A stretch of DNA of 64,000 nt from Rhodanobacter denitrificans (GTDB lineage: Bacteria; Pseudomonadota; Gammaproteobacteria; Xanthomonadales; Rhodanobacteraceae): assembly GCA_017848855.1 (NCBI GenBank), contig JAFIHF010000036.1:30954-94953 (forward strand), read 5' to 3'. Shown one piece after another: positions 8,011 to 30,165 of this stretch; position 1 is the first letter of the stretch; every line of letters starts with the position of its first letter. Made by a program: the position numbers and the translations under genes. The notes below the pieces were generated by a model. It did no database searches. It was not told the origin of the DNA and worked only from the letters and a program-made list of their open reading frames with translations.

Positions 8011-8022
8011 GGCGCCAAGCTT

Positions 8023-8068
8023 GTTCCATTATTTCGTTAGATGCAAATAAAAGTAGAAATAAAGGAAC
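8023..8068 (-). promoter_or_regulatory. Inverted-repeat operator of the AbiE operon
   Basis: GTTCCATTATTTC (8023-8035) and GAAATAAAGGAAC (8056-8068) are inverted copies matching at 12 of 13 positions, separated by 20 AT-rich bases. They lie 13 to 58 bases upstream of the antitoxin start, where AbiEi autoregulation is expected. The AT richness also marks this as the likely promoter. Confidence 0.75.
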
Positions 8069-8116
8069 ATCAGCTCAGGTCGCCATGCCGCGCTTCGACG
8101 CGCGGATCTCCGCCGC

Positions 8117-10579: not shown

Positions 10580-10598
10580 GCGTTGTCTCCTCGCCGGC

Positions 10599-11741
10599 TC
10601 AATGCAGAGCCTGGGTGCTCACGCCCAGTGCGCCGGCCGTCACCACCACGTCGCCGGCCACGGCCACGGCCGACGCCGGTGCCGGCTTGGCCGGCCGGTG
10701 GGAATCGAAATGCGCGCCGTCGTCGTGGCTGAGCAGCACGGTGCCAGCCTGGCTCACGAGGGCAAGGCCGTGCGCACCGAAGGCCATGCCGCCGGTGAGG
10801 CCCTCCTGCACGCCGGTATCGACCTGCGTCCACTGCGCGCCGCCATCGGTGCTGCGCCAGGCGTTGCCGCGCAGCCCGTACACCACCACCGCGTCGGCGT
10901 TGCCGGCGACGCCGAAATAGGTGCCCTGGTACGGCGTCGCCAGCTTGCGGAAACGCCCCGCGCCGCGGTCGAGCTTGAGCACCAGGCCCTGCTCGCCGGT
11001 GATGTAGACGTCCGCGCCGACGCCGCGCACCGCGTACAGGTGCAGCAGATCCGGGTTGTCGGTGCGGTCGAAGCGGCTGGTCCAGGTCTGGCCGCCGTCC
11101 ACGGTTTCGAAAATCAGGTTGAACGCGCCGACGATGTAGCCGTGCCGCGCATCGGCGAACCACACGTCGAGGAAGGGATTCTCCGCGCCCTGCGCCGCGA
11201 CGCGGCCCGCCTGCTCCAGCAGCTTGTCGGCGTCGTCCTTGCTGCCAAGCTCGCCCTTGGCCGCGCGCTCTCGCAGCTGCTCCAGCAGCAGCGGCCCCGC
11301 GCGTCGACCATCCAGTTGCACGCTCCAGCTCGCGCCGCCGTCGGCGCTGTGCAGCACCACGCCGTCGTGCCCCACCGCCCAGCCCTGCTGCGGCGTGGGG
11401 AAGCTCACCGCCACCAGGTCGGACGACACCGGCACCCTCGTCTGCCGCCAGCTCCTGCCGCCGTCGTCGGAGTAGACGATGTGGCCGCGCTGCCCGACCG
11501 CGACCACGCGCTGGCCGGCCAGCGCCAGGCCATTGAGCAGGCTCTTCGCGGCCAGCGGACTCATTGAGGACGGCGCGTCCAGCACGTCGACAAAGCTCGC
11601 GGCCGCGGCGATTTGCTGCGGCGGCGGTGCGTCGGGCGCATCGGCAAGGACTGCGGCCGACACGCACGGCAGCGCGAAGGCCAGCGCGAACAAGCTGCGG
11701 CGGAGATGGGGTTTGAGCATGGGGTGCACCAACGAATTCAT
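10599..11741 (-). CDS. YCF48-related BNR-repeat periplasmic protein
   Basis: A 380-residue predicted beta-propeller with an N-terminal signal sequence (LRRSLFALAFALPCVSAAVLADA). Asp-box-like repeats recur: SDDGGRSW, SADGGASW, TVDGGQTW and STDGGAQW, as in the YCF48/Hcf136 photosystem II assembly-factor family. In heterotrophs such proteins often sit beside RND transporters and DUF1329/DUF1302 genes and are assumed to help assembly or cargo transfer; the role is not established. Starts at 11741 and 11720 are both possible; I use 11741. It lies 19 bases upstream of the RND gene, so they form one operon. Confidence 0.82.
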   Translation of the reverse strand: MNSLVHPMLKPHLRRSLFALAFALPCVSAAVLADAPDAPPPQQIAAAASFVDVLDAPSSMSPLAAKSLLNGLALAGQRVVAVGQRGHIVYSDDGGRSWRQTRVPVSSDLVAVSFPTPQQGWAVGHDGVVLHSADGGASWSVQLDGRRAGPLLLEQLRERAAKGELGSKDDADKLLEQAGRVAAQGAENPFLDVWFADARHGYIVGAFNLIFETVDGGQTWTSRFDRTDNPDLLHLYAVRGVGADVYITGEQGLVLKLDRGAGRFRKLATPYQGTYFGVAGNADAVVVYGLRGNAWRSTDGGAQWTQVDTGVQEGLTGGMAFGAHGLALVSQAGTVLLSHDDGAHFDSHRPAKPAPASAVAVAGDVVVTAGALGVSTQALH

Positions 11742-11792
11742 TTGAATCCCGTATTTGGCAAGCGACAAGGCTCAGCGATACTCACCGTTCGC

Positions 11793-11811
11793 CCCCGGAT
11801 CAGGTCCGGGG
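11793..11811. repeat. Intergenic hairpin repeat between DUF1329 and YCF48 genes
   Basis: The 295-base gap 11742-12036 holds a 7-bp hairpin CCCCGGA-TCAGG-TCCGGGG, followed by further small palindromes (GCTCGCGAGC near 11862) and a stretch resembling widely dispersed intergenic repeats. No conserved gene is visible in this gap. Confidence 0.5.
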
Positions 11812-12036
11812 CAGGCTCTGAGCGCAGGCCCGCGGGGCCTAAGTCGAAGGGTGATCGCTCGCGAGCGCTTCGACTGCGCTTGCTGGCGCAAGCTACGCTC
11901 AGCGTGAACGGATTTCTGGTTTCTCGGCTGAGCCTCGTCTCCAGTCAGAATCCCGTATCGCCAATGAAGGCGGACAAGTCGCGGAGCAGATACGCCCCGC
12001 CCCGCGACCCGCCGCATGGCCGCCCGTCGCGGGCGG

Positions 12037-13392
12037 TCAGCGAACGCCCGAACCCGCCAGCGACGCCGGCGACCAGTCGCGATCCGAGCGCGGCTTCGTG
12101 TAGCGGATGCCGCCGGTTTCGCCGGAGAAGGCGGTCAGCGAATACGAACCCTCGATGAGGTCGTAGAGGCCGTGCAGGTCGGCTTCCGGCGCCGGCACGT
12201 CGTAGGCCGGCGTGATGTAGGCAAAACCCGCGCGGTACAGCTGCCCGCGTGCGTCGTACTCGTCGGACGCCACCGCCGCCCAGCTGTCCTCGTCGAGGTA
12301 GAACGTGCGCTTGCTGTAGATGTGGCGCTTGCCCGGCAGCAGGCTGGCCTCGACCACCCACACGCGGTGCAATTCCCAGCGCACGTCGTCGGGGTTGAGG
12401 TAGTGCGGCTGCAGCAGGTCGGCGGCCTTCGAGCCGTAGGCCATCTTGTAGTCGTTGTACGGAACGTAGATTTCCTTCTTGCCCACCAGCTTGAAGTCGT
12501 AGCGGTTCATCGAGCCGTTGAACAGGAACACGTCGTCGAAGGTGGAGGCGCCGCCCGTGCCCGGGTTGGGCGTGTCGAAGGCGAGATCCGGCGCCACCTT
12601 CACCCGGCGCTGGCCCGGCAGGTACTGCCACGCCTTGCGGTCGCTCTTGCTGTAGTTGAGCGGGTCGATGATCTGCAAGGCTTCGCCGGCGCGGCGCGCC
12701 GGGCCGGTATAGGTCAGCCGCTGCTCCCAGTACGCTTCCGCGTCCGGCTTGGCGGTATCCCAGTACGGGTATTCCTCGACCGCGTCGCCTTCGGTGGCCA
12801 GCGCGGCGTGGCCCGAGGCGTCGACGTTGTAGTTGCGGTACTTGGTGGCGTAGGCCACGCCGTTGAAGCGCACCAGGTGGTTCCACATCGCCTCGAAGCC
12901 GGTCGCCGGGATCGGGAACGGGAAGCCCGCATGGCAGCCGCTCACCGAACGGCCGCCGTCGGAGGTCTTCGCGTCCACCGCGCACTTGGCGGTGTTCTCG
13001 ACCACGAACTGCGGGAACGCCGCGGAGCGGTGGGTCGGATACACGTCGATGCGGTAGCCGGGGTACTTCTTCAGCAGGGCCTTGCTGCCCTCGGTCAGTT
13101 TGGCCGCGTACTTGTCCATGTTCCTGGCGTCGATCACCAGCACCGGCTTTTCGCCGGCGAACGGATCCGGGCGGACGCCGCTGCCCGCCTTGAAGCCGGC
13201 GGGCGCGCTGGCGAGGCCGCCCTTGTAGGCGGGGATGGCGCCATCGGCGCTGCCGGCCATCTCCGCGCCGACGCCGGTGAGCGTGGTGCCGAGCTTCTTC
13301 GCCGCCTGGGGCGAAACACCGGCATGGCCCACCCCGGCGATCAGGAGGGCAAGGGTTCCGGCGATCAGGCTTTTGCGGAATTGCATGCGCAT
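12037..13392 (-). CDS. DUF1329 outer-membrane-associated protein
   Basis: A 451-residue protein with a clean signal peptide (MRMQFRKSLIAGTLALLIAG ... GHA) and the DUF1329 body, for example GSMNRYDFKLVGKKEIYVPYND and the C-terminal YDLIEGSYSLTAFSGETGG. DUF1329 proteins have a LolB-like fold and nearly always travel with DUF1302 proteins. In Pseudomonas, pairs of this type are linked to a LuxR regulator and to use of fatty-acid-like substrates. Three in-frame ATGs are clustered; 13392 has GAGG at 6-base spacing and is chosen. A CCCCC-N8-GGGGGGGG element lies about 120 bases upstream. Confidence 0.9.
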   Translation of the reverse strand: MRMQFRKSLIAGTLALLIAGVGHAGVSPQAAKKLGTTLTGVGAEMAGSADGAIPAYKGGLASAPAGFKAGSGVRPDPFAGEKPVLVIDARNMDKYAAKLTEGSKALLKKYPGYRIDVYPTHRSAAFPQFVVENTAKCAVDAKTSDGGRSVSGCHAGFPFPIPATGFEAMWNHLVRFNGVAYATKYRNYNVDASGHAALATEGDAVEEYPYWDTAKPDAEAYWEQRLTYTGPARRAGEALQIIDPLNYSKSDRKAWQYLPGQRRVKVAPDLAFDTPNPGTGGASTFDDVFLFNGSMNRYDFKLVGKKEIYVPYNDYKMAYGSKAADLLQPHYLNPDDVRWELHRVWVVEASLLPGKRHIYSKRTFYLDEDSWAAVASDEYDARGQLYRAGFAYITPAYDVPAPEADLHGLYDLIEGSYSLTAFSGETGGIRYTKPRSDRDWSPASLAGSGVR

Positions 13393-13508
13393 ACTCATCC
13401 TCACAATGGTGATGCCAATGGCGGTGGCGGCTCCCGCCGTACCCCGCCTTGCGGCCAGGGACGCGCGAAAGCGGTCGATACCCATTGTCGGCAGCGGCGG
13501 CAACCGCA

Positions 13509-13529
13509 CCCCCCCCAAAACGTCGGGGG
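13509..13529 (-). promoter_or_regulatory. C5-N8-G8 element upstream of the DUF1329 gene
   Basis: On the minus strand this reads CCCCC, then GACGTTTT, then GGGGGGGG, then TGCGG. It lies upstream of the DUF1329 start and points toward it. The same arrangement recurs at 16399-16419 and 23254-23274. It is the candidate operator of the LuxR/MalT-type regulator. Confidence 0.65.
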
Positions 13530-13555
13530 AGGGGTCAACCGGACGGTGTGAGGGG

Positions 13556-16243
13556 TTACTCCAGCCCCTGGATCAGGCCGAGCAGTTGCGCGCGGTGCAC
13601 GACGTGCCGGCGCGTGCCCACGCCGAATTTGCTGAACAGGTTCTTGATGTGCCACTTCACAGTGGCTTCGCCCACGGCCATGGCCTGGGCGATCTCCTTG
13701 TTCGACAGGTTGCGCGCGAGGAATTCCAGCACCTCGCGCTCCTTCGGCGTCAGCACCATGCTCGGCACCACGCGCAGGCCGCCCTGGCGCTGCTCCGCCG
13801 GCGGCGGCACCACCCGCGACGGCGCGGCGGTGCCCGCCGCGGATTCGCCGCCCGCCTCCTCCATCACCCGGTACGCCCAGTCGGTGAGCATGGGGTGGGT
13901 GTCGGTGAAGATGCGCACGAAGCCGTAGGTGCGGGCCAGGCTCATGGCTTCGACGATGAGCGCGCGGCCGTCCTCGCCGTTGCGTTCCAGCGCGTAGGCG
14001 CGCAGCGCCATGCACTCGATGCGGAACCGCCCCAGCCTGGCCTGCCCGGCCATCGGCGCGGCGCGCGCCACCGCTTCGAGCACGCCGGGCCAGTCCTGCG
14101 CCGCCATCGCGGCATAGGCATGCACCATCGCGCTCACCAGTTCCACGTTGCGCCGCCACAGCGGCCCGCGGTGGGGGCTTTCGCTGGCCACCAGCTCGTC
14201 GATGCGGGCGATCAGCGCCGCGCAGGTTTCGCGGCGGAAACGGCTGGCGTGCAAGCGCACCTGCTCGCCGAGGCTGGCGATGCACAGGCGCGGCAGGCGC
14301 CGCGCCATGCCGATCGCGTACGCCGACTCCAGCATGTCCAGCGCGCGATGTTCCTCGCCCTGCGCCACCGCCACGCGCGTCGCGGTGCGGTAGCCCACCA
14401 GGATCGCCTCCGGTGCGCCCACCCGCTCCAGCACGTCCAGCCGGTTGGCCAAAAGGGCCAGCGCTTCGTCCAGGTGGTCGCGTTCGTAGGCGATCGAGGC
14501 CAGCAGGGCCGCAAACATGCACGACAGGGGATGGCGGCGCCCGAACTTCGCATCCATCGCGGCCAGCGACGCACGCAGGCCCTCCTCGGCGAGCAGCAGC
14601 TGGCCCTCCCACGCGAAGCTCAGGCCGACGATGAACTCGCGCCAGCGCAGCGAGGATTCGGGCTCCCGCGCCGGTTCCGCGCTGGCCGTGCCACAGAGCC
14701 GGCGCGCTTCCGCCGGGTCGCCCTGCAACAGGGCCAGCATGGCCAGGCGGTTGACGTGCATGCGCTGGAAGCGCGGCTCGCCGGCCAGCGGGGCATCCTT
14801 CCACGGCGCCAGCATGGCGGCGCAGCGGTCGGGATCGTCGGCGTAGTAGGCGGCGCCACTGGCGATCAGCACGCACTCGTAGCGCAGCGCGAGGCTGACG
14901 TCGGGCCGCGCGAGGATCAGCCCGACCAGGCGCTCGGCCTCCTCGTGGCGTTCGCTCACCGCCAGCGCCCACGCGGCCGCCAGGCGCAGCTGCGGGTGCT
15001 GGTCCAGCACCGACTCGGGGAACACGTCGAGCCATTCGCGCATGGTGCCCACGTGGCCCTGGATCACCGCCTCGTACAGGCCCCGCTGCGCCAGCTCGAC
15101 CGCCGCGTCTTCGCGGCCCGCCGCGCGCGCGTGGCGCGCCGCCTGGGTGAGCATGCCGTGCGCGGCCAGCCAGTCCTGCGCGCGGCCGTGCAAGTCGGCC
15201 TGCTCCGGCGCGGGCAGCTCGGCGAGGCGCTGACGCAGCGCGTCCAGGGCAAGCAGGTGCAGGCGGGACCACTCCGAGTCCTCGCCGATCACGAAGATCG
15301 GCGTCTCGCGCGCCAGCCGGGCCAGCCGCTGCGGCGCCTCCATGTCGCCGGTCAGGGCGATACACAGGTCAGGATGCAACTGGTCCACCACCGCCACGCG
15401 GGTGAGGAAGCTCACGTCCTCCGGCGCCAGCTTGGCGGTGAGCGCCTCCACCAGCTGGTTGCGCGAATCGGGCGAGTGCGGGCCCACCAGGCTGCGCAGG
15501 TCGCTGCCCCGCTCCATCGCGGCAAGCACGAGCTGCAGACCGAGCGGCCAGCCTTCGGTCATTTCATGCAGCCGCGCGCAGGTATCCGCATCGGCCTTGG
15601 CGCCGATGCGGTTGCGCACCAGGTCGATGGTTTCCTCCAGCGTGAAGCGCAGCGTTTCCACGCCCACGGAAGTGCACAGGCCGTAGGCGCGCAGGTCCGC
15701 CTCCATCGGCTCGAGCTCGCCGCGCCCGGCCGCCACCACGCGCAGGTTCGGCGGCGCGTTGTGCAGCAGGTAGTTCAGCGCGGCCAGGCTGTGCGGATGC
15801 AGGCGCTCGGCCTCGTCGATCATCAGCACCAGCGACAACGGCGCCTGCGCCACTTCGCTCAGCCACGCGGTGACGCCTTCGTACTCGCCGAAGGTCACCG
15901 CCGCGCTTTCCAGCAGGGTCGCGCCGAACTGTGGCCGGCCGCAGCCGGTGCGCACCGCCAGCACCAGGCTGTGCAGCATGCGCTGCGGATCGGGGCTGCC
16001 GTCGGCCGAGATCCAGGCCACCGCCCAGCCGCGCGCCAGGTATTCGTGGCGCCACTGCGCGAGCAGCGAGGTCTTGCCGAAGCCGCCCGGCGCCTGCACC
16101 AGGATGAACGGGCGGTCGCGGAACTGTTCGTCGTCCAGCCGCAGCCGCGGCCGCAGCAGCAGGTTGCGCGGCGCCCGCGGCGGCGTGGTCTTCAGCACGA
16201 GTTCGGCGATGGCGGGCGCTGCCCCGCCGGGCGTGAGTGCCAT
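13556..16243 (-). CDS. MalT-type LuxR-family ATP-dependent regulator
   Basis: An 895-residue STAND-class transcription activator. An N-terminal NTPase has Walker A APGGFGKTS (about 51-59) and Walker B LVLMIDEAE (about 140). A long TPR-like alpha-helical sensor region follows, and a C-terminal LuxR helix-turn-helix (LTPKEREVLEFLARNLSNKE ... ATVKWHIKNLFSKFGV). The size and order match MalT and AlkS, which bind ATP plus an inducer, oligomerise and activate promoters. I use the ATG at 16243 rather than the adjacent in-frame TTG at 16246. It sits between the DUF1329 and usp/hemerythrin transcription units and is the natural regulator of the locus. Confidence 0.93.
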   Translation of the reverse strand: MALTPGGAAPAIAELVLKTTPPRAPRNLLLRPRLRLDDEQFRDRPFILVQAPGGFGKTSLLAQWRHEYLARGWAVAWISADGSPDPQRMLHSLVLAVRTGCGRPQFGATLLESAAVTFGEYEGVTAWLSEVAQAPLSLVLMIDEAERLHPHSLAALNYLLHNAPPNLRVVAAGRGELEPMEADLRAYGLCTSVGVETLRFTLEETIDLVRNRIGAKADADTCARLHEMTEGWPLGLQLVLAAMERGSDLRSLVGPHSPDSRNQLVEALTAKLAPEDVSFLTRVAVVDQLHPDLCIALTGDMEAPQRLARLARETPIFVIGEDSEWSRLHLLALDALRQRLAELPAPEQADLHGRAQDWLAAHGMLTQAARHARAAGREDAAVELAQRGLYEAVIQGHVGTMREWLDVFPESVLDQHPQLRLAAAWALAVSERHEEAERLVGLILARPDVSLALRYECVLIASGAAYYADDPDRCAAMLAPWKDAPLAGEPRFQRMHVNRLAMLALLQGDPAEARRLCGTASAEPAREPESSLRWREFIVGLSFAWEGQLLLAEEGLRASLAAMDAKFGRRHPLSCMFAALLASIAYERDHLDEALALLANRLDVLERVGAPEAILVGYRTATRVAVAQGEEHRALDMLESAYAIGMARRLPRLCIASLGEQVRLHASRFRRETCAALIARIDELVASESPHRGPLWRRNVELVSAMVHAYAAMAAQDWPGVLEAVARAAPMAGQARLGRFRIECMALRAYALERNGEDGRALIVEAMSLARTYGFVRIFTDTHPMLTDWAYRVMEEAGGESAAGTAAPSRVVPPPAEQRQGGLRVVPSMVLTPKEREVLEFLARNLSNKEIAQAMAVGEATVKWHIKNLFSKFGVGTRRHVVHRAQLLGLIQGLE

Positions 16244-16398
16244 CAAACGATTCCGGTTGGCCTGACGCTTTGCCGAACGGACGAGGCGGCGCCGCGGTCC
16301 GTGCGCACCCCGCGAACACCGTTCGGCGATGCGCGTTCGGGGGCATTGTAGTCACGCCGAATCCGCCATGGACACACGCCCCCTCCCCGCCCCGCATG

Positions 16399-16419
16399 CC
16401 CCCTCCTTGCCGGGGGGGG
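16399..16419 (+). promoter_or_regulatory. C5-N8-G8 element upstream of usp-hemerythrin gene
   Basis: CCCCC (16399-16403), TCCTTGCC, GGGGGGGG (16412-16419), followed by CTGCGG. It is the only conspicuous structure in the 362-base divergent region 16244-16605 and points toward the plus-strand operon. A possible -10, TATCTA at 16436-16441, lies 16 bases after the G run. Confidence 0.65.
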
Positions 16420-16605
16420 CTGCGGCCAGCGCACGTATCTAGCCTTGCTGCCGTGACGACACAGGTCCGGCGTTTCCGCCGCTTGGCGGCCACGGTCGAG
16501 TTGGAGGAAAGTTCCATTCGGCAGGGGCGGCGTCCCGGCGACGATCCTCCGCATGCGGAGGCGCTGCGCCCGGTGTCACGGGTAGCACCCCTGTCTGGAG
16601 CCTGC

Positions 16606-17580
16606 ATGTACCGCCACCTGCTCGTCCCGCTCGACGACAACGACCTCGCGATCGAAACGGTCGGCAAGGCGGTGAACCTCGCGCGCACGCTGGGAGCGCG
16701 GGTCAGCTTCGTGCACGTGCACGATGGCCGGGCCGCGCCCGTCGATGGCGCTGCCGACACGCGGCACGAGCGCGCCGACGCGCTGCTGGCCAAGGCCGAA
16801 GCCGTGGCGCGCGCGCTGGGCGTGCCCTGCGACGCCGCCGTGCTCGACGGCGATGCGCCGCACGCGGCGATCCTCGCCGCGGCGCGCAAGGGCGGCTGCG
16901 ACCTCATCTTCATGGCGCCGCGCGGCCAGCGCGCCGAACGCGGCGCGGCACTCGGCGCGCAGACGGCCCACGTGCTGGCGGGCGGCGAGCTGCCGGTGCT
17001 GGTCACCTCGGCGCGGAACGCGGGCCAGGCGCATCCGATGGTCGAGAGCCTGCGCGACGAGCATCGCGCGCTCGCCGCCGTGCTGCACGCCTGGCAGCAC
17101 CTGCTGCACCACGGCGATCCGTCGAGTGCGGCGGACGTGGAACTGATGCGCGCGATGGCGCGCTACGTCGTCGAGTTTCCGCTGACCCTGCATCACCCGG
17201 TGGAGCGCGATCTGCTGTTCACCGTGCTGCGCGGGCGCACCGCCGTGGTCAACGCCGAGCTGGACGAACTGGAACGCCAGCACGAACGCGAGCGCACGCT
17301 GGCCGAAGCGCTGGGCGAGCAGGTGGAACGCTACGCCCGGCACGAGATCACGCTCGCGCAGCTGCGCGACACCGTCGACGGCTACGCGCATTTCATGTGG
17401 GAACACATGGGCCGCGTCGAGGGCGTGATCCTGCCGGTCGCCCAGCGCTGCCTCACCGAAACCGACTGGAACGCCATCCACGCGGCAGCCACCCGGCCCG
17501 GCGGCGCCCGCGCCAACGGCGAGGCCGCGGCGGCCTGCCGGCAACTGTTCGCGCGCATGGCGCATCCTGCGCCGCAATGA
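16606..17580 (+). CDS. Universal stress protein fused to a hemerythrin-like domain
   Basis: A 324-residue two-domain protein. Residues 1 to about 140 form a UspA domain (MYRHLLVPLDDNDLAIETV ... the C-terminal GAQTAHVLAGGELPVLVTS), although the ATP-binding G-2x-G-9x-G(S/T) motif is imperfect. Residues about 145-300 form a hemerythrin/HHE helical bundle with candidate diiron ligands in DEHRALAAVL, LHHPVERDLL, QHERER and WEHMGRVEG. The fusion suggests an oxygen-, NO- or iron-linked stress sensor. The ATG has GGAG upstream. It is the first gene after the C5-N8-G8 element, 40 bases before the quinone reductase gene, and so probably leads this operon. Confidence 0.85.
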   Translation: MYRHLLVPLDDNDLAIETVGKAVNLARTLGARVSFVHVHDGRAAPVDGAADTRHERADALLAKAEAVARALGVPCDAAVLDGDAPHAAILAAARKGGCDLIFMAPRGQRAERGAALGAQTAHVLAGGELPVLVTSARNAGQAHPMVESLRDEHRALAAVLHAWQHLLHHGDPSSAADVELMRAMARYVVEFPLTLHHPVERDLLFTVLRGRTAVVNAELDELERQHERERTLAEALGEQVERYARHEITLAQLRDTVDGYAHFMWEHMGRVEGVILPVAQRCLTETDWNAIHAAATRPGGARANGEAAAACRQLFARMAHPAPQ

Positions 17581-17620
17581 ACCACGCAACCGCAGCGCCC
17601 TGAACCTTAGGAGACCTCGT

Positions 17621-18601
17621 TTGGAACACGCGATCCGCTTTCATGAAACCGGCAGCCCCGACGTGCTGCGCTACGAGGAAGTCCAAGTCGGCGCGCCCGG
17701 CCAGGGCGAGGTGCGCCTGCGCCATCAGGCCGTGGGGCTCAACTTCGCGGACACCTATTTCCGCAACGGCACCTATCCGATCCCGCTGCCGAACGGCATC
17801 GGCGTCGAGGCCGCCGGCGTGGTCGAGGCCGTCGGCCCGGGCGTGACCAACGTCGCGGTGGGCGACCGCGTCACCTACACCGGCTTCATCAACACCCTGG
17901 GCGCCTACAGCACCGCGCGGCTGGTGCCGGCGGCGCCGCTGATCCGGCTGCCCGACGCGATCGCCTGCGACACCGCGGCGGCGATGACCATGCGCGGCCT
18001 CACCTCGGCCTACCTGATGCGCCGCATCCATCCATTCCAGGCCGGCGACACGATCCTGCTGCACGCCGCCGCCGGCGGCGTGGGCCTGATCGTGTCGCAA
18101 TGGGCCAAGCTGCTCGGCCTGCGCGTGATCGGCACGGTGTCGACCGCGGAGAAGGCCGCGGTGGCGCGCGCGCACGGCTGCGACGAGACCATCGACTCCA
18201 GCCGCGAGGACATCGCCGCGCGGGCGCGCGAACTGACCGACGGCAAGGGCGTCGCCGTGGTGTTCGACTCGGTGGGCCGGAGCACGTTCAACGCCTCGCT
18301 CGACTCGCTGCGCCGGCGCGGGCTGATGGTCTGCGTGGGCACCGCCTCCGGCACCATCCCGCCGTTCGACCCGCAACTGCTCGCGATGAAGGGCTCGCTG
18401 TACCTGACCCGCCCCGCGCTGGCCGACTACATCGCCGACCCGGCCGAGAAAGCCGCGCTCGCGCAGGAGCTGTTCGACCACGTGGCAGCCGGCCGCATCC
18501 GCATCGAGATCAACCAGCGCTATGCGCTCCAGGACGCGGCGCAGGCGCACCGCGACCTCGAGGCGCGCAAGACCACCGGCTCGTCCATCTTCGTCATCTG
18601 A
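17621..18601 (+). CDS. NADPH:quinone reductase-like zinc-independent MDR oxidoreductase
   Basis: A 326-residue medium-chain dehydrogenase/reductase of the zeta-crystallin/QorA type. The catalytic fold has LNFADTYFRNGTYP and the Rossmann motif HAAAGGVGLIVSQWAKLLG near residue 150, with no zinc-binding cysteines. The family reduces quinones or enones with NADPH. The start is TTG at 17621 with AGGAG 7 bases upstream; no ATG fits. It follows the usp/hemerythrin gene by 40 bases and precedes the dioxygenase gene by 8. In this operon it may reduce an enoyl or quinoid intermediate. Confidence 0.9.
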   Translation: MEHAIRFHETGSPDVLRYEEVQVGAPGQGEVRLRHQAVGLNFADTYFRNGTYPIPLPNGIGVEAAGVVEAVGPGVTNVAVGDRVTYTGFINTLGAYSTARLVPAAPLIRLPDAIACDTAAAMTMRGLTSAYLMRRIHPFQAGDTILLHAAAGGVGLIVSQWAKLLGLRVIGTVSTAEKAAVARAHGCDETIDSSREDIAARARELTDGKGVAVVFDSVGRSTFNASLDSLRRRGLMVCVGTASGTIPPFDPQLLAMKGSLYLTRPALADYIADPAEKAALAQELFDHVAAGRIRIEINQRYALQDAAQAHRDLEARKTTGSSIFVI

Positions 18602-18609
18602 GGCCACCC

Positions 18610-19458
18610 ATGCGCATCGAGCAACTGACCTGCAACATCGGCGCCGAACTGTTCGACGTGAACCTCGCCGACGCCGTCCACGACGACGACTTGTTCGCCG
18701 AGATCAAGGCGGCGCTGCTCAAGCACCGCGTGCTGTTCCTGCGCAACCAGGACATCAGCCGCCCGGACCATGTCGCGTTCGCGCGCCGCTTCGGCGAGCT
18801 GGAAGACCACCCGGTCGCCCCCAGCCACCCGGACGCGCCGGGGCTGGTGCAGATCTACAAGACGCCCGACACGCCGATCGACCGCTACGAGAACGCCTGG
18901 CACACCGACGCCACCTGGCGCGACAAGCCGCCGATGGGCTGCGTGCTGCGCTGCGTGGAATGCCCGCCGGTGGGCGGCGACACCATGTGGGCGAACATGG
19001 TGGCCGCCTACGAGATGCTGCCCGCGCACATCAAGACGCAGATCGCCGGCCTGCGCGCGCGCCACAGCATCGAAGCCACGTTCGGCGCCGCGATGCCGAC
19101 CGAGCGCCGCCTCGCGCTGAAGGCGCAATTCCCGGACGCCGAGCACCCGGTGGTGCGCACGCACCCGGAGACCGGCGAGAAGGTGCTGTTCGTCAACGCG
19201 TTCACCACGCACTTCACGAACTTCCACACCAAGGACAACGTGCACTTCGGCCAAGACTACAACCCGGGCGCGAGCCTCTTGCTCAACTACCTGGTCAGCC
19301 AGGCCTTCATCCCCGAGTTCCAGGTGCGCTGGCGCTGGAGCCCGAACAGCATCGCGATCTGGGACAACCGCTCCACCCAGCACTACGCGGTGATGGATTA
19401 CCCGCCCTGCCACCGGAAGATGGAGCGCGCCGGCATCGTCGGCGACGCCACGTTCTGA
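18610..19458 (+). CDS. TauD/TfdA-family Fe(II)/2-oxoglutarate dioxygenase
   Basis: A 282-residue enzyme of normal TauD length. The facial triad is visible as H98-x-D100 (WHTD) and H258 (STQHYAV), with a 2-oxoglutarate-binding Arg in HRKMERAGI (R269 or R273). The family hydroxylates the carbon next to a heteroatom or carboxylate and so releases sulfite, phenol, amine or sulfate from a small acid. Substrate-binding residues do not let me choose between taurine-, alkylsulfate- and aryloxyalkanoate-type enzymes. It is in an operon with a beta-keto acid cleavage enzyme and an MFS transporter, so a catabolic role is more likely than antibiotic synthesis. Confidence 0.9.
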   Translation: MRIEQLTCNIGAELFDVNLADAVHDDDLFAEIKAALLKHRVLFLRNQDISRPDHVAFARRFGELEDHPVAPSHPDAPGLVQIYKTPDTPIDRYENAWHTDATWRDKPPMGCVLRCVECPPVGGDTMWANMVAAYEMLPAHIKTQIAGLRARHSIEATFGAAMPTERRLALKAQFPDAEHPVVRTHPETGEKVLFVNAFTTHFTNFHTKDNVHFGQDYNPGASLLLNYLVSQAFIPEFQVRWRWSPNSIAIWDNRSTQHYAVMDYPPCHRKMERAGIVGDATF

Positions 19459-19495
19459 ACCGAATCCCCCCACGCAGATCAACAGGACAAAGCCC

Positions 19496-20551
19496 ATGAA
19501 CTTCCTCGACGGTTCGCTGTTCCCCGAAAACCAGGACAAGCTGGTCATCACCGCCGCGCCCTACGGCCCCGAGTGGATCCCCTCGGATTTCCCGGAGGAC
19601 ATCCCCGTCTCGATGGAGGCGCAGGTGCAGAAGGCGGTCGATTGCTACAACGCCGGCGCCAGCGTGCTGCACCTGCATGTGCGCGAGCTGGACGGCAAGG
19701 GCTCCAAGCGCCTGTCCATGTTCAACGAGCTGATCGCCGGCGTGCGCAAGGCGGTGCCGGACATGGTGATCCAGGTCGGCGGCTCGATCTCGTTCGCGCC
19801 CGAGTCCGACGGCGCCAGCGCGAAGTGGCTGAAGGATGACACCCGCCACATGCTGGCCGAGCTCGATCCCAAGCCGGACCAGGTCACCGTCACCGTCAAC
19901 ACCACGCAGATGAACGTGGTCGAGCAGATGGAGTTCGCGGACATCGCCGGCACCTCGCTGGCCGAGCCGCAGACCTACCAGGCCTACCGCGAGATGATCG
20001 TGCCCTCCGGCCCCGGCTTCATCGAGGAGCACATCAAGCGCCTCACCGCCGCCGGCATCCAGAGCGCGTTCCAGTTCTACAACATCAACAGCTACGAGAC
20101 GGTGGAACGGCTGATCCGCCGCGGCGTCTACAAGGGCCCGCTGGTGATGAACTGGGTGGCGATCGGCGGCGGCATGGACGCGCCGAACATCTACAACCTG
20201 GCGAACTTCGTGCGCGCGATCCCCGACGGCGCGATGCTCACGGTGGAAAGCAGCATGCGCAACGTGCTGCCGATCAACATGATCGGCATGGCGATGGGCC
20301 TGCACGTGCGCTGCGGCATCGAGGACAACCTGTGGAACCAGTCGCGCACCGCGAAGATGACCACGGTGCAGCAGATCGAGCAGCTGGTGCGCATCGCGCG
20401 CGAGTTCGGCCGCGACGTCGCCTCGGGCAAGGAGGCGCGCGAGATCCTGCGCATCGGCGTGTTCTACGACACCATCGAGGAGACGCTGGCGGCGAACGGC
20501 TTCTCGCCGAACCGCAAGCCGGCGAAGCTGGGGCTGGCGGACGCGGCCTGA
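19496..20551 (+). CDS. Beta-keto acid cleavage enzyme (BKACE, DUF849)
   Basis: A 351-residue TIM-barrel protein of the BKACE family, which condenses a beta-keto acid with acetyl-CoA and splits it to acetoacetate plus a new acyl-CoA. Candidate zinc ligands H59 and H61 lie in VLHLHVREL, and GLHVRCGIEDNLW is the C-terminal signature. It is longer than the roughly 300-residue keto-amino-hexanoate enzymes and carries extra segments around residues 85-140. AGGA precedes the ATG. No carnitine or lysine-fermentation dehydrogenase is nearby, so the keto acid is unknown. It links the dioxygenase to the acyl-CoA ligase chemistry of this locus. Confidence 0.9.
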   Translation: MNFLDGSLFPENQDKLVITAAPYGPEWIPSDFPEDIPVSMEAQVQKAVDCYNAGASVLHLHVRELDGKGSKRLSMFNELIAGVRKAVPDMVIQVGGSISFAPESDGASAKWLKDDTRHMLAELDPKPDQVTVTVNTTQMNVVEQMEFADIAGTSLAEPQTYQAYREMIVPSGPGFIEEHIKRLTAAGIQSAFQFYNINSYETVERLIRRGVYKGPLVMNWVAIGGGMDAPNIYNLANFVRAIPDGAMLTVESSMRNVLPINMIGMAMGLHVRCGIEDNLWNQSRTAKMTTVQQIEQLVRIAREFGRDVASGKEAREILRIGVFYDTIEETLAANGFSPNRKPAKLGLADAA

Positions 20552-20630
20552 GCCGCAACGATCGAGCGGCGGGGCGCCACGGGGCCTCGCCGTTCGAACC
20601 GCACCACCGCGGGCGAGGAGACCGTTCCGA

Positions 20631-21950
20631 ATGCACTACGTCGACGCCCCCACACTGGGCACTCCAGTCGCATCCTTCTCCAGGCCGCGCGTCTACGCCT
20701 GGCTGGTGTTCGCGCTCACCTTCGGCCTGCTGCTGTCGGACTACATGTCGCGCCAGGTGCTCAACGCGGTGTTCCCGCTGCTCAAGGCCGAATGGGGCCT
20801 GTCCGATACGCAGCTGGGTTCGCTGTCCGGCGTCGTCGCGCTGCTGGTCGGCCTGCTCACCTTCCCGCTTTCGGTGCTGGCCGACCGCTGGGGCCGCGTG
20901 CGCAGCATCCTGCTGATGGCCGCGCTGTGGAGCCTGGCCACGCTGGCCTGCGGCATCGCGACGGGCTACGGCGAGATGTTCGCCGCGCGCTTCTTCGTCG
21001 GCCTGGGCGAGGCCGCCTACGGCAGCGTCGGCGTGGCGCTGATCATCAGCATCTTCCCGGCGCACCTGCGCTCCACCCTCACCGGCAGCTTCATGGCCGG
21101 CGGCGCGTTCGGTTCGGTCGCCGGCATGGCGCTGGGCGGCGTGCTCGCCACGCGGCTGGGCTGGCGCTGGGCGTTCGTCGCGATGGCGATCTTCGGCGCC
21201 GCGCTGCTGGTGCTGTACGCGCTCACCGTGACCGAGCGCCGGCTGCGCGCGCACAGCGCGGTGGCGCTGCCCTCGCGGCATGCCCGCCCGGGCCTGCGCG
21301 TCTCGCTGCGCCAGCTGTTCGGCGGCCTGTTCGCCAGCACCTCGGTGATCTGCGCCTACGTCGGCAGCGGCCTGCAGCTGTTCATCATGGCCGCGGTGAT
21401 CGCCTGGATGCCGAGCTTCCTCAACCGCTACTACGCGATGGCGCCGGACAAGGCAGGCGTCGGCGCCGCCGCCTTCGTGCTGATCGGCGCGCTGGGCATG
21501 GTGGTCTGCGGCATCGTCACCGACCGCCTGTGCCGCCGGATGCCCACGCGCAAGATGGCGATGGCGATCGGCTACTGCACGATCACCGCGATCCTGCTCG
21601 GCCTCGCGTTCCAGTTGCCGCCCGGCCGGGGCCAGCTGCTGGTGGCCGCGCTGGGCATGTTCTTCGCCGCCGGCACCTCCGGCCCGGCCGGCGCGATGGT
21701 GGCCAACCTCACGCCGACGCCGATCCACGCCTCCGCGTTCGCCACGCTGACCTTCGCGAACAACCTGCTCGGCCTCGCGCCCGGCCCGCTGCTGACCGGC
21801 GTGCTGGCCGACCGCATGGGCCTGCTCGGCGCCTTCAGGCTGGTGCCGCTGCTGGGGCTGCTCGCCGCCGCCGCGTTCTGGATCGGCCGCCGCCACTACG
21901 GCAACGACCTCGCCTGCATGCAGGCGGCCGAACGCGTCGACGCCGCCTGA
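20631..21950 (+). CDS. Major facilitator superfamily transporter
   Basis: A 439-residue inner-membrane protein with 12 predicted helices. The MFS loop 2-3 motif is seen as VLADRWGRVRS, and a second copy GIVTDRLCRRMPTRKM between helices 8 and 9. It resembles organic-anion or spinster-like carriers. GAGGAG precedes the ATG. Placed between the BKACE gene and the hydrolase gene in the same direction, it is probably the inner-membrane importer of the locus substrate, though export cannot be excluded. Confidence 0.88.
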   Translation: MHYVDAPTLGTPVASFSRPRVYAWLVFALTFGLLLSDYMSRQVLNAVFPLLKAEWGLSDTQLGSLSGVVALLVGLLTFPLSVLADRWGRVRSILLMAALWSLATLACGIATGYGEMFAARFFVGLGEAAYGSVGVALIISIFPAHLRSTLTGSFMAGGAFGSVAGMALGGVLATRLGWRWAFVAMAIFGAALLVLYALTVTERRLRAHSAVALPSRHARPGLRVSLRQLFGGLFASTSVICAYVGSGLQLFIMAAVIAWMPSFLNRYYAMAPDKAGVGAAAFVLIGALGMVVCGIVTDRLCRRMPTRKMAMAIGYCTITAILLGLAFQLPPGRGQLLVAALGMFFAAGTSGPAGAMVANLTPTPIHASAFATLTFANNLLGLAPGPLLTGVLADRMGLLGAFRLVPLLGLLAAAAFWIGRRHYGNDLACMQAAERVDAA

Positions 21951-21978
21951 TCCATCCACGCTTTCGATACCGAACACG

Positions 21979-22527
21979 ATGAATCCCACCATCCTGATCG
22001 TTCCCGGCCTGCGCGACCATGTCGCGGAGCACTGGCAGACCCTGCTCGAAGCCCGGCTTCCCGGCGCACGCTCGGTGCCGCCGCTTGAGCACGACAAGCT
22101 GAGCCGGGCCGCCCGCGTGGCCGCGCTGGACGCGGCGCTGGCCGCCATCGACGGCCCGGTGATCCTCGTCGCGCACAGCGCCGGCGTGATGATCGCGGTG
22201 CAGTGGGCGCAGGCGCATCGGCGTCCCATCCACGGCGCGCTGCTGGCGACGCCGGCCGACGTGGAGTCGCCGATGCCGGCGGGCTACCCGACCACGGATG
22301 CGCTGCGCGAGCACGGCTGGCTGCCGATCCCACGCGCGCGCCTGCCCTTCCCGTCCATCCTCGCCTCCAGCAGCAACGACCCGCTGTGCTCCGCGGCGCG
22401 CGCCGCCGGCATGGCGCAGGACTGGGGCAGCCGCCTGGTCGAACTGGGCGAGGTCGGCCATCTCAATCCGGCGGCCGGCTACGGCCCGTGGCCGGCGGCC
22501 GATGCGCTGATCGACGCGCTGCGATGA
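21979..22527 (+). CDS. RBBP9/YdeN-family alpha/beta hydrolase
   Basis: A 182-residue small alpha/beta hydrolase. The Ser nucleophile is in VAHSAGV, the Asp in SSNDPLC and the His in GHLN, all in order, so the enzyme should be active. Family members are serine hydrolases of poorly known substrate. Its stop overlaps the start of the DsbA-like gene (ATGA), which shows translational coupling. In context it may hydrolyse an ester or thioester intermediate. Confidence 0.88.
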   Translation: MNPTILIVPGLRDHVAEHWQTLLEARLPGARSVPPLEHDKLSRAARVAALDAALAAIDGPVILVAHSAGVMIAVQWAQAHRRPIHGALLATPADVESPMPAGYPTTDALREHGWLPIPRARLPFPSILASSSNDPLCSAARAAGMAQDWGSRLVELGEVGHLNPAAGYGPWPAADALIDALR

Positions 22528-23216
22528 GCCGCCCTGCGAACGCCGCCGCGCCGCTGCCGCGCCGGCGCATCTCGGTCGATTTCCACTACGACCTGATCTG
22601 TCCGTGGTGCATGATCGGCAAGCGGCGGCTGGAGCGCGCCATCGAGCTGGTGGCCCGCTACCACCCCGACGTCGAAGTCCGCGTGCGCTGGAAGTCGTTC
22701 CCGCTGCTGCCCGAGCTGCCGCTCGAAGGCACGCCGTTCCAGGCGTTCTACCTGGCCCGGCTGGGCAGCGCGGCCGCGGTGGAAGCGCGGCGCCGGCAGG
22801 TCCGCGAAGCCGGCCACGCCTGCGGCATCCGTTTCGATTTCGAACGCATCGCATGGATGCCCAACACCATCGCCGCGCACGCCCTGGTCGAGCGTGCCGG
22901 GCAGATCGGCGGCGCGGCGCTGCAGTCGCAACTCATCGACCAGCTGTTTCAGGCGTATTTCCAGCGCGGCGTGCACATCGGCGACCGGCAGGCGCTGGCC
23001 GAGATCGGCGCGATCTGCGGCATCCCGCGCGCGGCGTGTCGCGAGAGCACGGAGCCGTCCCGCTACGGCGGCTTGCTCGATCGCTGGCTGGGCGAGGCCC
23101 AGCGGGAAGGACTGCAAGGCGTGCCGGGTTTCGTGTTCGGCGACCGCCAGTCCCTGTCCGGTGCGCTGCCGCCCGACGTGCTCGCCAAGGCCATGCTGGC
23201 ATCCCTGCAGCATTGA
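22524..23216 (+). CDS. DsbA-family (FrnE-like) cytoplasmic oxidoreductase
   Basis: A 230-residue thioredoxin-fold protein with an inserted helical domain, no signal peptide, and the active site C26-P-W-C29 (DLICPWCMIGKRRLE). The downstream QGVPGFVFGDR holds the cis-Pro loop. This is the 2-hydroxychromene-2-carboxylate isomerase/FrnE subgroup, which includes dithiol oxidoreductases and glutathione-dependent isomerases; the CxxC favours a redox role. The ATG overlaps the previous stop. It is the last gene before the leader of the DUF1302 gene. Confidence 0.87.
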   Translation: MSRPANAAAPLPRRRISVDFHYDLICPWCMIGKRRLERAIELVARYHPDVEVRVRWKSFPLLPELPLEGTPFQAFYLARLGSAAAVEARRRQVREAGHACGIRFDFERIAWMPNTIAAHALVERAGQIGGAALQSQLIDQLFQAYFQRGVHIGDRQALAEIGAICGIPRAACRESTEPSRYGGLLDRWLGEAQREGLQGVPGFVFGDRQSLSGALPPDVLAKAMLASLQH

Positions 23217-23253
23217 TGCGGGTCGCAGGCGATGCCAGCGCGCGACACCGGCT

Positions 23254-23274
23254 CCCCCACCGGACTGGGGGGGG
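23254..23274 (+). promoter_or_regulatory. C5-N8-G8 element upstream of the DUF1302 gene
   Basis: CCCCC (23254-23258), ACCGGACT, GGGGGGGG (23267-23274), followed by CCTTCGG. It lies about 175 bases upstream of the DUF1302 start and points toward it. It is the third copy of the candidate operator. Confidence 0.65.
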
Positions 23275-23447
23275 CCTTCGGCAGGCATCGGCTGGAATCT
23301 CGTCATGCCGGAAACCGTCGCCGGCGACGCACAGGCCAGGCGATGGCGACCACCCGCAGGGCATGGCCGCGCAGTCGGGGATGGCTGCATCGGGCGGCCT
23401 GGCAATACGCAATCCACACGGCACACGACACGGGGGAGGAGAGTTGC

Positions 23448-25259
23448 ATGAAGAAGTTTGATGGGGCGCCCACGCGCCGCGGCACGCCGGCCATCCGCCT
23501 GATGGCGCTCGCTGTCGCGGCAGCGCTCGGCCCGATGGGCGCGGCACACGCCGTCGAATTCAACACCGGCAATCCCGACCTCGCGATCCGCTGGGACAAC
23601 ACCGTGCGCTACAACCTCGGCCAGCGCATGAGTTCGCAGGAGCAGGCGATCCTCAACAGCCCGAACTACGACGACGGCGACCGCAACTTCGGCAACCACG
23701 CCATCGTCACCAACCGCGTGGACGTGCTGAGCGAATTCGACTTCGTCTACAAGAAGAACTACGGCTTCCGCATCAGCGCCGACGGCTGGTACGACCACGC
23801 CTACGGCTCGCTGGACAACACCCACGTCGCCTCGTCCAACCACCTCGTCAACGGCCAGCCCGCGCTCGGCCTGCCGCGCTACACCAAGCGCTATTTCGAG
23901 GGGCCGTCGGGCCAGCTGCTCGACGCCTTCGCGTTCGCCAACTTCGACGTGGGCGGCGTCAACGTCAACACCAAGGCCGGCCGCTTCGACGTGTACTGGG
24001 GCGAGGCGCTGCTCAACCCGATCCACTCGCTGAGCTACGGCCAGTCGCCGCTGGACATCGGCAAGCTGCTCACCGTGCCCGGCGCCACGCTGAAGGAACT
24101 GTTCCGCCCGCGCTCGCAGCTGTCGGCGCAGATCCAGGCCACGCCCACCCTTTCGCTCGAAGGCCAGTACTACCTCGGCTGGGAGCAGGTGTACTACCCC
24201 GAGTCGGGTTCCTACATGGGGCCGAACGACGCCGTGCTGCAGGGCGGCCAGTCGCTCTACATCAACCCGACGCAGCGCGTGCTGCGCGGCCACGACATCA
24301 CCCCGAAGGGCCAGGGCGACTGGGGCGTATCGGCGCACTGGAGCCCCGATGCCCTCAACGCCACCATCGGCCTCTATTACCGCAACACCTCGGACATCCA
24401 GCCGCAGGTGATCGTGGCGCCGGCGGTGGCGCCGAACGTGCCCGCCGCGGCCTGCAACGCGCTCGGCTTCCATCCGCTCGGCCCGACGCTGTGCTACGTC
24501 AACCCCGCGATGGCCAGCGTGCCGCAGATCCTGCAGGGCAACGTGGGCCAGTACATGGCCAGCTACGCCGACGGCATCCACATCTACGGCCTGAGCTTCG
24601 CCAAGCAGATCCTCGGCATCAGCATGAGCGCGGAAGTGAACTACCGCCAGAACATGCCGCTGGCGAGCATCCCGGTGCAGTTGCTGCCGGCGCCGCTGGC
24701 CGGCAAGGTGACCGGCGCGATCAGCGCGCTGCCGACGCAGGGCAACACCGCCGGCGCCCGCGGCGACACCTGGCACGCGGTGGCCGACTTCGCCGGCGTG
24801 GTGCCGAAGACGCCGGTGTTCGATACCGCCAGCTACGTCGTCGAGTTCGTGTGGAGCCGCTGGGACAAGGTCACGCAGAACCCGAACGCCTTCCTCGGCA
24901 CCAGCCCGGGCTACACCGGCATCGACAAGCCCACGCGCAACTTCTTCGGCACCCAGCTCAGCTTCACGCCGACCTGGTTCCAGGTCCGCCCCGGCGTGGA
25001 CCTGCTGATGCCGATGACGTATTCGATGGGCCTGTCCGGCAACTCGGCGGTCACCTTCGGCGGCAACAAGGGCAACGGCAACTACTCCATCGGCCTGGGC
25101 ATGGACGTGCGGCAGCGCTTCCGCTTCGACCTGAAGTACATCGGCTACCTGGGCCGCATCGCCACCAGCCCGGCGAACGTGGTGACCTCCAGCGCCGGCC
25201 TCGCCTCGCTGCTGCGCGACCGCAACTACATCGACTTCACCTTCCAGACCACGTTCTAG
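23448..25259 (+). CDS. DUF1302 family outer-membrane protein
   Basis: A 603-residue protein with a signal peptide (LMALAVAAALGPMGAAHA, then VEF) and the DUF1302 body starting VEFNTGNPDLAIRWDNTVRY. The rest alternates polar and aromatic beta-strands with a terminal DFTFQTTF ending in Phe, as expected of an outer-membrane barrel. GGAGGAG precedes the ATG at 23448. DUF1302 and DUF1329 proteins co-occur and are thought to act together at the outer membrane on hydrophobic substrates. The fatty acid-CoA ligase gene begins 67 bases after the stop, so uptake and activation appear co-transcribed. Confidence 0.9.
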   Translation: MKKFDGAPTRRGTPAIRLMALAVAAALGPMGAAHAVEFNTGNPDLAIRWDNTVRYNLGQRMSSQEQAILNSPNYDDGDRNFGNHAIVTNRVDVLSEFDFVYKKNYGFRISADGWYDHAYGSLDNTHVASSNHLVNGQPALGLPRYTKRYFEGPSGQLLDAFAFANFDVGGVNVNTKAGRFDVYWGEALLNPIHSLSYGQSPLDIGKLLTVPGATLKELFRPRSQLSAQIQATPTLSLEGQYYLGWEQVYYPESGSYMGPNDAVLQGGQSLYINPTQRVLRGHDITPKGQGDWGVSAHWSPDALNATIGLYYRNTSDIQPQVIVAPAVAPNVPAAACNALGFHPLGPTLCYVNPAMASVPQILQGNVGQYMASYADGIHIYGLSFAKQILGISMSAEVNYRQNMPLASIPVQLLPAPLAGKVTGAISALPTQGNTAGARGDTWHAVADFAGVVPKTPVFDTASYVVEFVWSRWDKVTQNPNAFLGTSPGYTGIDKPTRNFFGTQLSFTPTWFQVRPGVDLLMPMTYSMGLSGNSAVTFGGNKGNGNYSIGLGMDVRQRFRFDLKYIGYLGRIATSPANVVTSSAGLASLLRDRNYIDFTFQTTF

Positions 25260-25326
25260 TGTTGCCTGCCCGGCGCCGTCGCACGGCGGCGCCGGGCCTC
25301 CCCTGCCTGACCTGCGGAACCCGACG

Positions 25327-26961: not shown

Positions 26962-26995
26962 ACCGATCCGGGCGGGAGAAACCGCGCCCAGCCTG

Positions 26996-27001
26996 TATAA
27001 T
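26996..27001 (+). promoter_or_regulatory. -10 element upstream of the glycine riboswitch
   Basis: A perfect TATAAT lies about 16 bases before the first aptamer stem, where transcription of the gcvP leader should begin. No convincing -35 element is seen at 17-base spacing. Confidence 0.6.
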
Positions 27002-27017
27002 CGCCAGCTGCAAACGC

Positions 27018-27197
27018 ATGGTGGGAGAAGCGGCCGTTCCGTCGGGAGCGCACCGCTGCCGAAGGCGCAACGCCCGTAATCGCTCAGGCCCCATACCATC
27101 CTGCGCAACAGCACTCTGGAGAGAGCGGTTCGATCCGCCGCCGAAGGGGCACGAGGCGCGCCCGCGCGCTTCCAAACTCTCAGGCAAAAGGACAGAG
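27018..27197 (+). promoter_or_regulatory. Tandem glycine riboswitch
   Basis: Two aptamers are visible. Aptamer 1 closes ATGGT (27018-27022) with ACCAT (27095-27099) and contains GGGAGAAGC, GCCGAAGGCGCAACGCCC and GCTCAGGCCCCATACC. Aptamer 2 closes CTCTG (27114-27118) with CAGAG (27193-27197) and contains GGAGAGAGCGG, GCCGAAGGGGCA and CTCTCAGGCAAAAGGACAG. These are the conserved cores of the gcvT RNA motif. Glycine binding normally switches on the cleavage-system gene downstream, here gcvP. Confidence 0.95.
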
Positions 27198-27239
27198 GGG
27201 CGCCCCGCGTGCGGCTCGCACGTTGACTTCGGACGCCCC
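27197..27239 (+). promoter_or_regulatory. Expression-platform hairpin of the glycine riboswitch
   Basis: GGGGCG (27197-27202) can pair with CGCCCC (27234-27239), enclosing an inner stem CGTGCG/CGCACG. The right arm ends 4 bases before the gcvP ATG, and the left arm overlaps the end of the aptamer 2 closing stem. Formation could therefore be mutually exclusive with glycine binding. The leader lacks a clear Shine-Dalgarno sequence. Confidence 0.55.
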
Positions 27240-27243
27240 TGCC

Positions 27244-30165
<2,922 letters not shown>

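Follow-up and report, generated by a model that had tools for sequence, protein, structure and literature searches.

MalT of Escherichia coli binds asymmetric boxes of the GGGGAKGAGG type, often arranged as direct repeats, and class II activators of the LuxR/NarL type use a dyad box near −42.5, as in the case of the lux box. Here we describe a C-run/G-run box that occurs three times around the gene of a large MalT-like LuxR regulator in a 64,000-nucleotide stretch of Rhodanobacter denitrificans DNA (assembly GCA_017848855.1, contig JAFIHF010000036.1, positions 30,954 to 94,953 of the forward strand; this whole stretch is called the window, and its own numbering is used). The boxes are, with a probability of roughly 0.87, the operator of this regulator, which is encoded at 13556–16246 and would activate three transcription units in the class II manner. 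The regulator has in common with MalT an NTPase domain, MalT-like TPR and a C-terminal GerE domain, whereas its putative site is a single imperfect 21-bp palindrome common to three leaders. The site resembles those of LuxR/NarL class II activators in being a dyad of approximately 20 bp whose centre would lie near −42, but this putative operator differs in its C-run/G-run sequence and in the much larger, MalT-like protein encoded beside it.

According to PMC6394551, AmeABCD of Castellaniella defragrans are four proteins linked to monoterpene metabolism, namely a DUF1302 protein, a DUF1329 protein, a photosystem-stability-factor-like protein and an HAE3 RND transporter. All four components are also encoded in the present locus (DUF1302, DUF1329, YCF48/BNR and MMPL). 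However, their order here is not contiguous, the ameA-like gene lying approximately 10 kb off in a separate unit, and the locus is linked to TauD and BKACE genes rather than to monoterpene genes. Neither LuxR nor regulator occurs in the main text of PMC6394551. In Pseudomonas putida, PP_0765, PP_0766, PP_2018 and PP_2019 are needed for Tween 20 metabolism and were proposed to form a transport system (PMC10866462, excerpt). This set is alike in combining DUF1302 and DUF1329 proteins with a periplasmic protein and an efflux transporter, but its genes are dispersed, judging from the locus numbers in that excerpt, which gives no account of their regulation. In the excerpt of PMC3110197, DUF1329 and DUF1302 are merely listed among nanopod proteins. 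The open-access literature searched yielded no report joining LuxR with DUF1302, with DUF1329 in a context of degradation, or with beta-keto acid cleavage. The putative regulator–operator pair is new, and of an already known sort.

The three boxes were found at the following positions.

13529–13509, minus strand: box 1, CCCCC-GACGTTTT-GGGGGGGG (in full CCCCCGACGTTTTGGGGGGGG), 5′ of the DUF1329 (ameB-like) gene
16399–16419, plus strand: box 2, CCCCC-TCCTTGCC-GGGGGGGG (in full CCCCCTCCTTGCCGGGGGGGG), between the divergent regulator and usp genes and oriented to usp
23254–23274, plus strand: box 3, CCCCC-ACCGGACT-GGGGGGGG (in full CCCCCACCGGACTGGGGGGGG), 5′ of the DUF1302 (ameA-like) gene

A preliminary description of this DNA had placed the elements at these positions and strands, had them all point toward genes and had noticed no fourth copy of C5-N8-G5 in the window. 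All of this was confirmed: the boxes face the ATG codons of DUF1329 (13392), usp (16606) and DUF1302 (23448) at distances of 116, 186 and 173 nt, respectively, and C5-N8-G5 has exactly three matches in the window, compared with a mean of 0.15 in dinucleotide shuffles (at least three matches in 0 of 100). When the spacer was set to 9 to 11, the same three sites were re-read, and no C5/G5 match was present in the window with spacers of 4 to 7, 12 or 13. In the 3.49-Mb genome, C5-N8-G8 was found at the three locus sites alone, so that there is no scatter of unlinked strict copies. The shorter C5-N8-G5 occurs at 12 places in the whole genome, three of them at the locus, and the looser CCC-N10-G7 at nine distinct places, of which three are the locus boxes.

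The other nine C5-N8-G5 places, five of which represent the same repeat, raise the question of whether the boxes arose by chance or are a mobile element similar to repetitive extragenic palindromes. However, these nine form hairpins, have other flanks and carry spacers that are self-complementary (GCGAAAGC/GCTTTCGC in five cases, AACGCGTT in two, and TGCTTGCA and AACTTGTT in one each), and the locus sites differ from one another in both spacer and flank. Furthermore, the locus sites are orthologous across species, are conserved in orthologous leaders and face −10-like hexamers, as described below. A chance or repeat origin is consequently very improbable. The hairpin CCCCCGCGAAAGCGGGGG is repeated with near-identical flanks at five places (contigs C28, C33, C43, C55 and C61 of the source genome), and four of the copies (C28, C33, C43 and C61) are no more than about 80 bases away from the end of a contig, as expected of a repeat that breaks the assembly.

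The regulator is encoded at 86–88% identity in four species of Dyella, which belongs to Rhodanobacteraceae, and at 87% in a further genome of the same family (G033). L014 and G027/G062 are apparently one assembly, their coordinates agreeing within a base, and were counted once among these five relatives. In all five, each of the three leaders has retained the element (one copy is degenerate), and in the aligned leaders the boxes are conserved in place amid diverged flanks. Box 1 reads CCCCTCCCCCG[AG]CGTTTTGGGGGGGG in six of six aligned sequences, only one spacer base being variable, and box 2 is retained in six of six, with a single spacer-base change in three of the five relatives. For box 3, four of five aligned sequences show the C5-N8-G8 form; the relatives that have it are L014, L015, L016 and G033, where it was found separately, and L013 has CCCTATCCGAGTTGGGGGGGG. 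All 11 places of C5-N8-G7 in the four Dyella genomes are inside this locus, and the reversed control pattern gave no match in three of these genomes and three matches in G063.

The element best fits an imperfect 21-bp palindrome of 8-5-8 arrangement, CCCCCnCC-N5-GGGGGGGG, in which a C facing the G half stands at position 7 in 20 of 23 distinct sites and at position 8 in 14 of them (sites of L018, L019, L201 and L209, whose register is uncertain, were omitted from all position and pair counts). The site of G556 is a near-perfect palindrome, CCCCCTCC-TGCAA-GGAGGGGG. Such a sequence could also act in RNA, where a C5/G5 or C8/G8 hairpin of the 5′ leader might cause attenuation or termination or make the transcript more stable. 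All three boxes do fold as C-G stems (z values of −2.0 and −2.9 against shuffles for two of them and −0.4 for the third). However, there is no T-run, and a terminator scan listed none of the three sites. G-arm positions 14, 15 and 17–19 are invariant in the 23 distinct sites, whereas C-arm positions change, and the pair 6-16 becomes A-G or G-G, with a single T-A case there; the variation of the C arm against a fixed G arm indicates little compensation. The spacer is conserved per leader, and a −10-like hexamer lies downstream of each box, which would then not be transcribed from that promoter. A search of 8000–27500 with Rfam at gathering thresholds detected no family at the boxes and only an unrelated glycine riboswitch. 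The hairpin or terminator reading was rejected on the grounds of absent T-runs, little compensation and the −10 located 3′ of the box, and we consider it improbable.

The preliminary description had likened the element to the G-rich asymmetric boxes of MalT-type regulators. No exact GGGGAKGAGG decamer is present in the window, and 12 matches with at most one mismatch were found against 9.93 expected. With two mismatches allowed, the usp leader contains one decamer towards usp and four on the strand opposite usp, of which one has a single mismatch. The DUF1329 leader has one per strand, that of DUF1302 has one, directed away from the gene, and no decamer arrangement is common to the three leaders. 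The decamers are at chance level, and the element is better read as an 8-5-8 palindrome with a LuxR-type placement near −42 than as an asymmetric box of the MalT type.

That placement depends on −10-like hexamers that probably lie 3′ of each box.

13484–13489, minus strand: putative −10 hexamer GACAAT (AACAAT in relatives) at box positions 41–46; mean of 4.0 of 6 matches to TATAAT in six leaders
16440–16445, plus strand: putative −10 hexamer TAGCCT at box positions 42–47; TAnnnT in six of six usp leaders
23293–23298, plus strand: putative −10 hexamer TGGAAT at box positions 40–45, the least certain of the three; mean of 3.8 of 6 matches in five leaders, no TAnnnT

Of 16 Burkholderiales leaders, 11 have a TAnnnT that starts at box position 41, and all six usp leaders have one at 42, compared with means of 0.06 and 0.00 leaders, respectively, at other offsets, although these counts are not independent because the leaders are related; the box anchors of variant sites were chosen by hand. 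In the DUF1302 leaders the hexamer begins at about position 40, and in the DUF1329 leaders (AACAAT or GACAAT) at 41. If it is set at −12 to −7, the centre of the box falls near −42, the class II position, and a dimer would activate from over the −35 region. A block 3′ of box 1, [GA]ACAATGGGTATCGACCGCTT at 13489–13460 on the minus strand, is near-invariant in six genomes. This block overlaps the putative −10 of the DUF1329 leader, and it could also begin a short leader peptide (MGIDRF...), whose frame is open into DUF1329 in three of the six genomes and stopped in the other three.

The association of the box with the regulator was surveyed in two groups of genomes. Among 61 relatives (own genome included), the regulator is present at an identity of at least 87% in three, namely R. 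denitrificans itself, G027 and G033, and the next match over most of the length has 30% identity. In each of these genomes, C5-N8-G8 occurs exactly three times and always in the locus. Of the remaining 58 genomes, 52 lack such a site; G001 and G024 contain many places in C/G tracts (not all listed), and G006 and G016 have two and three hairpin-like sites, respectively. The second group, the family to which Variovorax G067 belongs, comprised 299 genomes, in which the regulator occurs at 46–59% identity in 15 genomes and at 29–39% in four more. The more specific pattern CCCCCTCNNCNNNGGGGGG is present in 23 of the 299, comprising 12 of the 15 with the regulator and 11 of the 284 others, where a match anywhere was counted (Fisher p = 6e-13, a value that is partly circular because CCCCCTCNNCNNNGGGGGG was shaped on these loci). 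Each of the 12 regulator-bearing genomes has a match to CCCCCTCNNCNNNGGGGGG no more than about 3.2 kb from the regulator and ahead of an operon led by TauD or BKACE; in G531 there is a further match at a distance of 66 kb. Of the three regulator-bearing genomes without CCCCCTCNNCNNNGGGGGG, G729 has C5-N8-G6-7-like sites before the regulator and DUF1302 genes. In its locus (L201, 7781–17765), the regulator is directly followed by ameABCD-like genes in one contiguous run, which a C-run/G-run box precedes, and the Usp/TauD/BKACE unit is divergent.

These data also bear on whether the boxes are operators of a regulator encoded elsewhere, the MalT-like gene being a mere neighbour. Only association is shown, and GC-rich palindromes could suit other factors. 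Nevertheless, the box tracks the MalT-like regulator in both the Dyella-type and the Variovorax-family genomes, in agreement with the link drawn in the preliminary description, and in most Variovorax-family loci it stands right beside the regulator gene despite a gene order unlike that of the window. In addition, homologous leaders from genomes lacking the regulator score low, as shown below with a weight matrix. A regulator encoded elsewhere is accordingly unlikely, though slightly less so than an action in RNA.

The weight matrix was built from the nine distinct Dyella-type sites only and was used to scan 400 bp upstream of 18 regulator-linked Burkholderiales leaders (TauD, BKACE and, in L201, DUF1302), which gave best scores of 6.3–18.3. 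As a control, 18 further BKACE loci were taken, of which 14 were scored (L252, L254, L260 and L261 were left out since the operon start was not visible); one of the control loci, L269, belongs to G556, where the regulator is encoded at another place. The eight TauD-led control leaders, all of genomes in which no regulator was found at E 1e-60, scored −2.4 to 1.9 (Mann-Whitney p = 3e-5), and the maximum of all 14 scored control leaders was 6.1, below all 18 linked ones (p = 9e-7). C5-N8-G6 was absent from the fetched DNA of all 18 control loci. Distantly related bacteria have thus kept the boxes along with the gene of a regulator close by, and the boxes are most likely its operators, that is, the sites from which the regulator would switch on a small set of breakdown and transport genes.

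The genes concerned are as follows, with functions assigned from Pfam except where stated.

8117–10579, minus strand: MMPL/RND transporter (ameD-like)
10599–11768, minus strand: YCF48/BNR protein (ameC-like), the listed start being mechanical
12037–13392, minus strand: DUF1329 protein (ameB-like), first gene of unit 1, start located
13556–16246, minus strand: regulator with AAA/STAND NTPase, MalT-like TPR and C-terminal LuxR (GerE) helix-turn-helix
16606–17580, plus strand: universal stress protein–hemerythrin fusion (usp), first gene of unit 2, start located
17621–23216, plus strand: rest of unit 2, encoding a quinone-oxidoreductase-like alcohol dehydrogenase, TauD dioxygenase, BKACE, MFS transporter, serine hydrolase and DSBA-like protein
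23448–25259, plus strand: DUF1302 protein (ameA-like), first gene of unit 3, start located
25327–26961, plus strand: AMP-binding acyl-CoA ligase

The regulator matches AAA_22 in its N-terminal NTPase (30.9 bits, cut-off 27), TPR_MalT (60 bits, cut-off 45) and GerE (56.2 bits, residues 830–886), and its nearest solved relative by sequence is MalT (8bob, residues 42–423). Unit 2 is probably co-transcribed, given its run of genes on one strand. The glycine riboswitch mentioned above (RF00504, 64.2 bits; 27106–27205, plus strand) lies 5′ of an open reading frame at 27223 that resembles glycine dehydrogenase, a name taken from reading the translation.

In the mechanism that we propose, the regulator would be activated by a ligand, perhaps a hydrophobic inducer, through its STAND NTPase and TPR sensor, and its C-terminal helix-turn-helix would bind the 21-bp imperfect palindrome. 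With the box centred near −42, the G-run half would overlap the place of the missing −35 hexamer, and the bound regulator would recruit RNA polymerase. Binding, activation and the transcription starts are predicted here from sequence. The predicted targets are the ameBCD-like unit, the usp-hemerythrin unit with its TauD/BKACE catabolic genes, and the unit of the ameA-like and acyl ligase genes.

A looser form, CCC-N10-G6-8, lies between the Usp and regulator genes in L017 and L018 (in L018 its G-run faces the regulator), and it also occurs close to the regulator pair of L022, L023, L024, L026 and L027. In Pseudomonas L025, a DUF1302 reading frame that lacks the N-terminal part and heads DUF1329-BNR-RND has this form 0.7 kb ahead of its listed start, and another copy precedes a thiolase gene. 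In Pseudomonas putida 17522 (L022, 18726–18834), two CCC-N10-G8 boxes stand 75 bp apart before one gene; the first is retained in L023, L024, L026 and L027, and the second also in L023. The gene behind them (18920–20632) had no Pfam match and is therefore not called DUF1302. Besides the three of nine in R. denitrificans, distinct CCC-N10-G7 places fall at the regulator locus in two of three cases in G069, two of four in G067 and three of five in G061, and in G068 four of nine are in a 22-kb span around its two regulators. A class search at E 1e-30 or better found the regulator class in 15 of 369 genomes, at 26–32% identity apart from our own, and gave 16 loci besides our own, of which L116 and L125 have a C-run/G-run hairpin beside the regulator. 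The evidence for this wider occurrence of the box is suggestive. Throughout Gammaproteobacteria, AmeABCD-type envelope transport and the acyl/beta-keto-acid catabolism linked to it could be governed by a single ancestral system that consists of a MalT-like regulator and a palindromic CCC-N10-G6-8 box near −42; Pseudomonas, whose regulators are only 28–36% identical, would be included. To this tentative idea we give somewhat less than an even chance.

Several observations weigh against the boxes being the operator of a three-unit regulon, in addition to the partial circularity noted above. The number of three targets depends on the strict form, since CCC-N10-G7 has six other places in the genome. 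The −10 offset shifts by 1–2 nt between units, TAnnnT is missing from the DUF1329 and DUF1302 leaders, and a promoter scan found no good σ70 promoter, although the missing −35 is weak evidence because shuffles average just 0.4. G014 and G017 each have one non-hairpin C5-N8-G8 without this regulator. The regulator-bearing G556 and G610, as well as Variovorax L019, have a palindrome variant with GGAGGGGG instead of the exact form, although in all three it stands at the same place as CCCCCTCNNCNNNGGGGGG in other loci. No box was found near the second regulator copy of G518 (L216) or the 39% identical one of G478 (L217). The best matrix match is on the opposite strand in seven of the 18 linked leaders, the best of 40 shuffles beats the real score in six of 18, scores of up to 10.9 occur inside the 4-kb control loci and the margin of the weakest linked leader, L017, is small; single weak leaders (L017, L201 and L212) therefore prove nothing alone, and the strength lies in the whole set. 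Finally, CCC-N10-G7 was not found at the regulator locus of G065, G066 or G070, and the reversed control outnumbers its matches in G065 (13 to 6) and G066 (13 to 4). The proposal of the preliminary description, an operator of this regulator with a three-unit regulon, is supported by rarity, conservation in orthologous leaders and the link to the regulator, and its number of units holds for the strict form.

The boxes would provide a concrete, rare operator for the class of large LuxR/MalT-like activators, and they would tie DUF1302/DUF1329/RND envelope systems to defined catabolic genes. Within any one Dyella-type genome the strict form is close to unique, so that the predicted regulon can be read from the sequence there. 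If the wider proposal is true, one searchable box could define regulons and help to find the substrates of DUF1302/DUF1329 systems.

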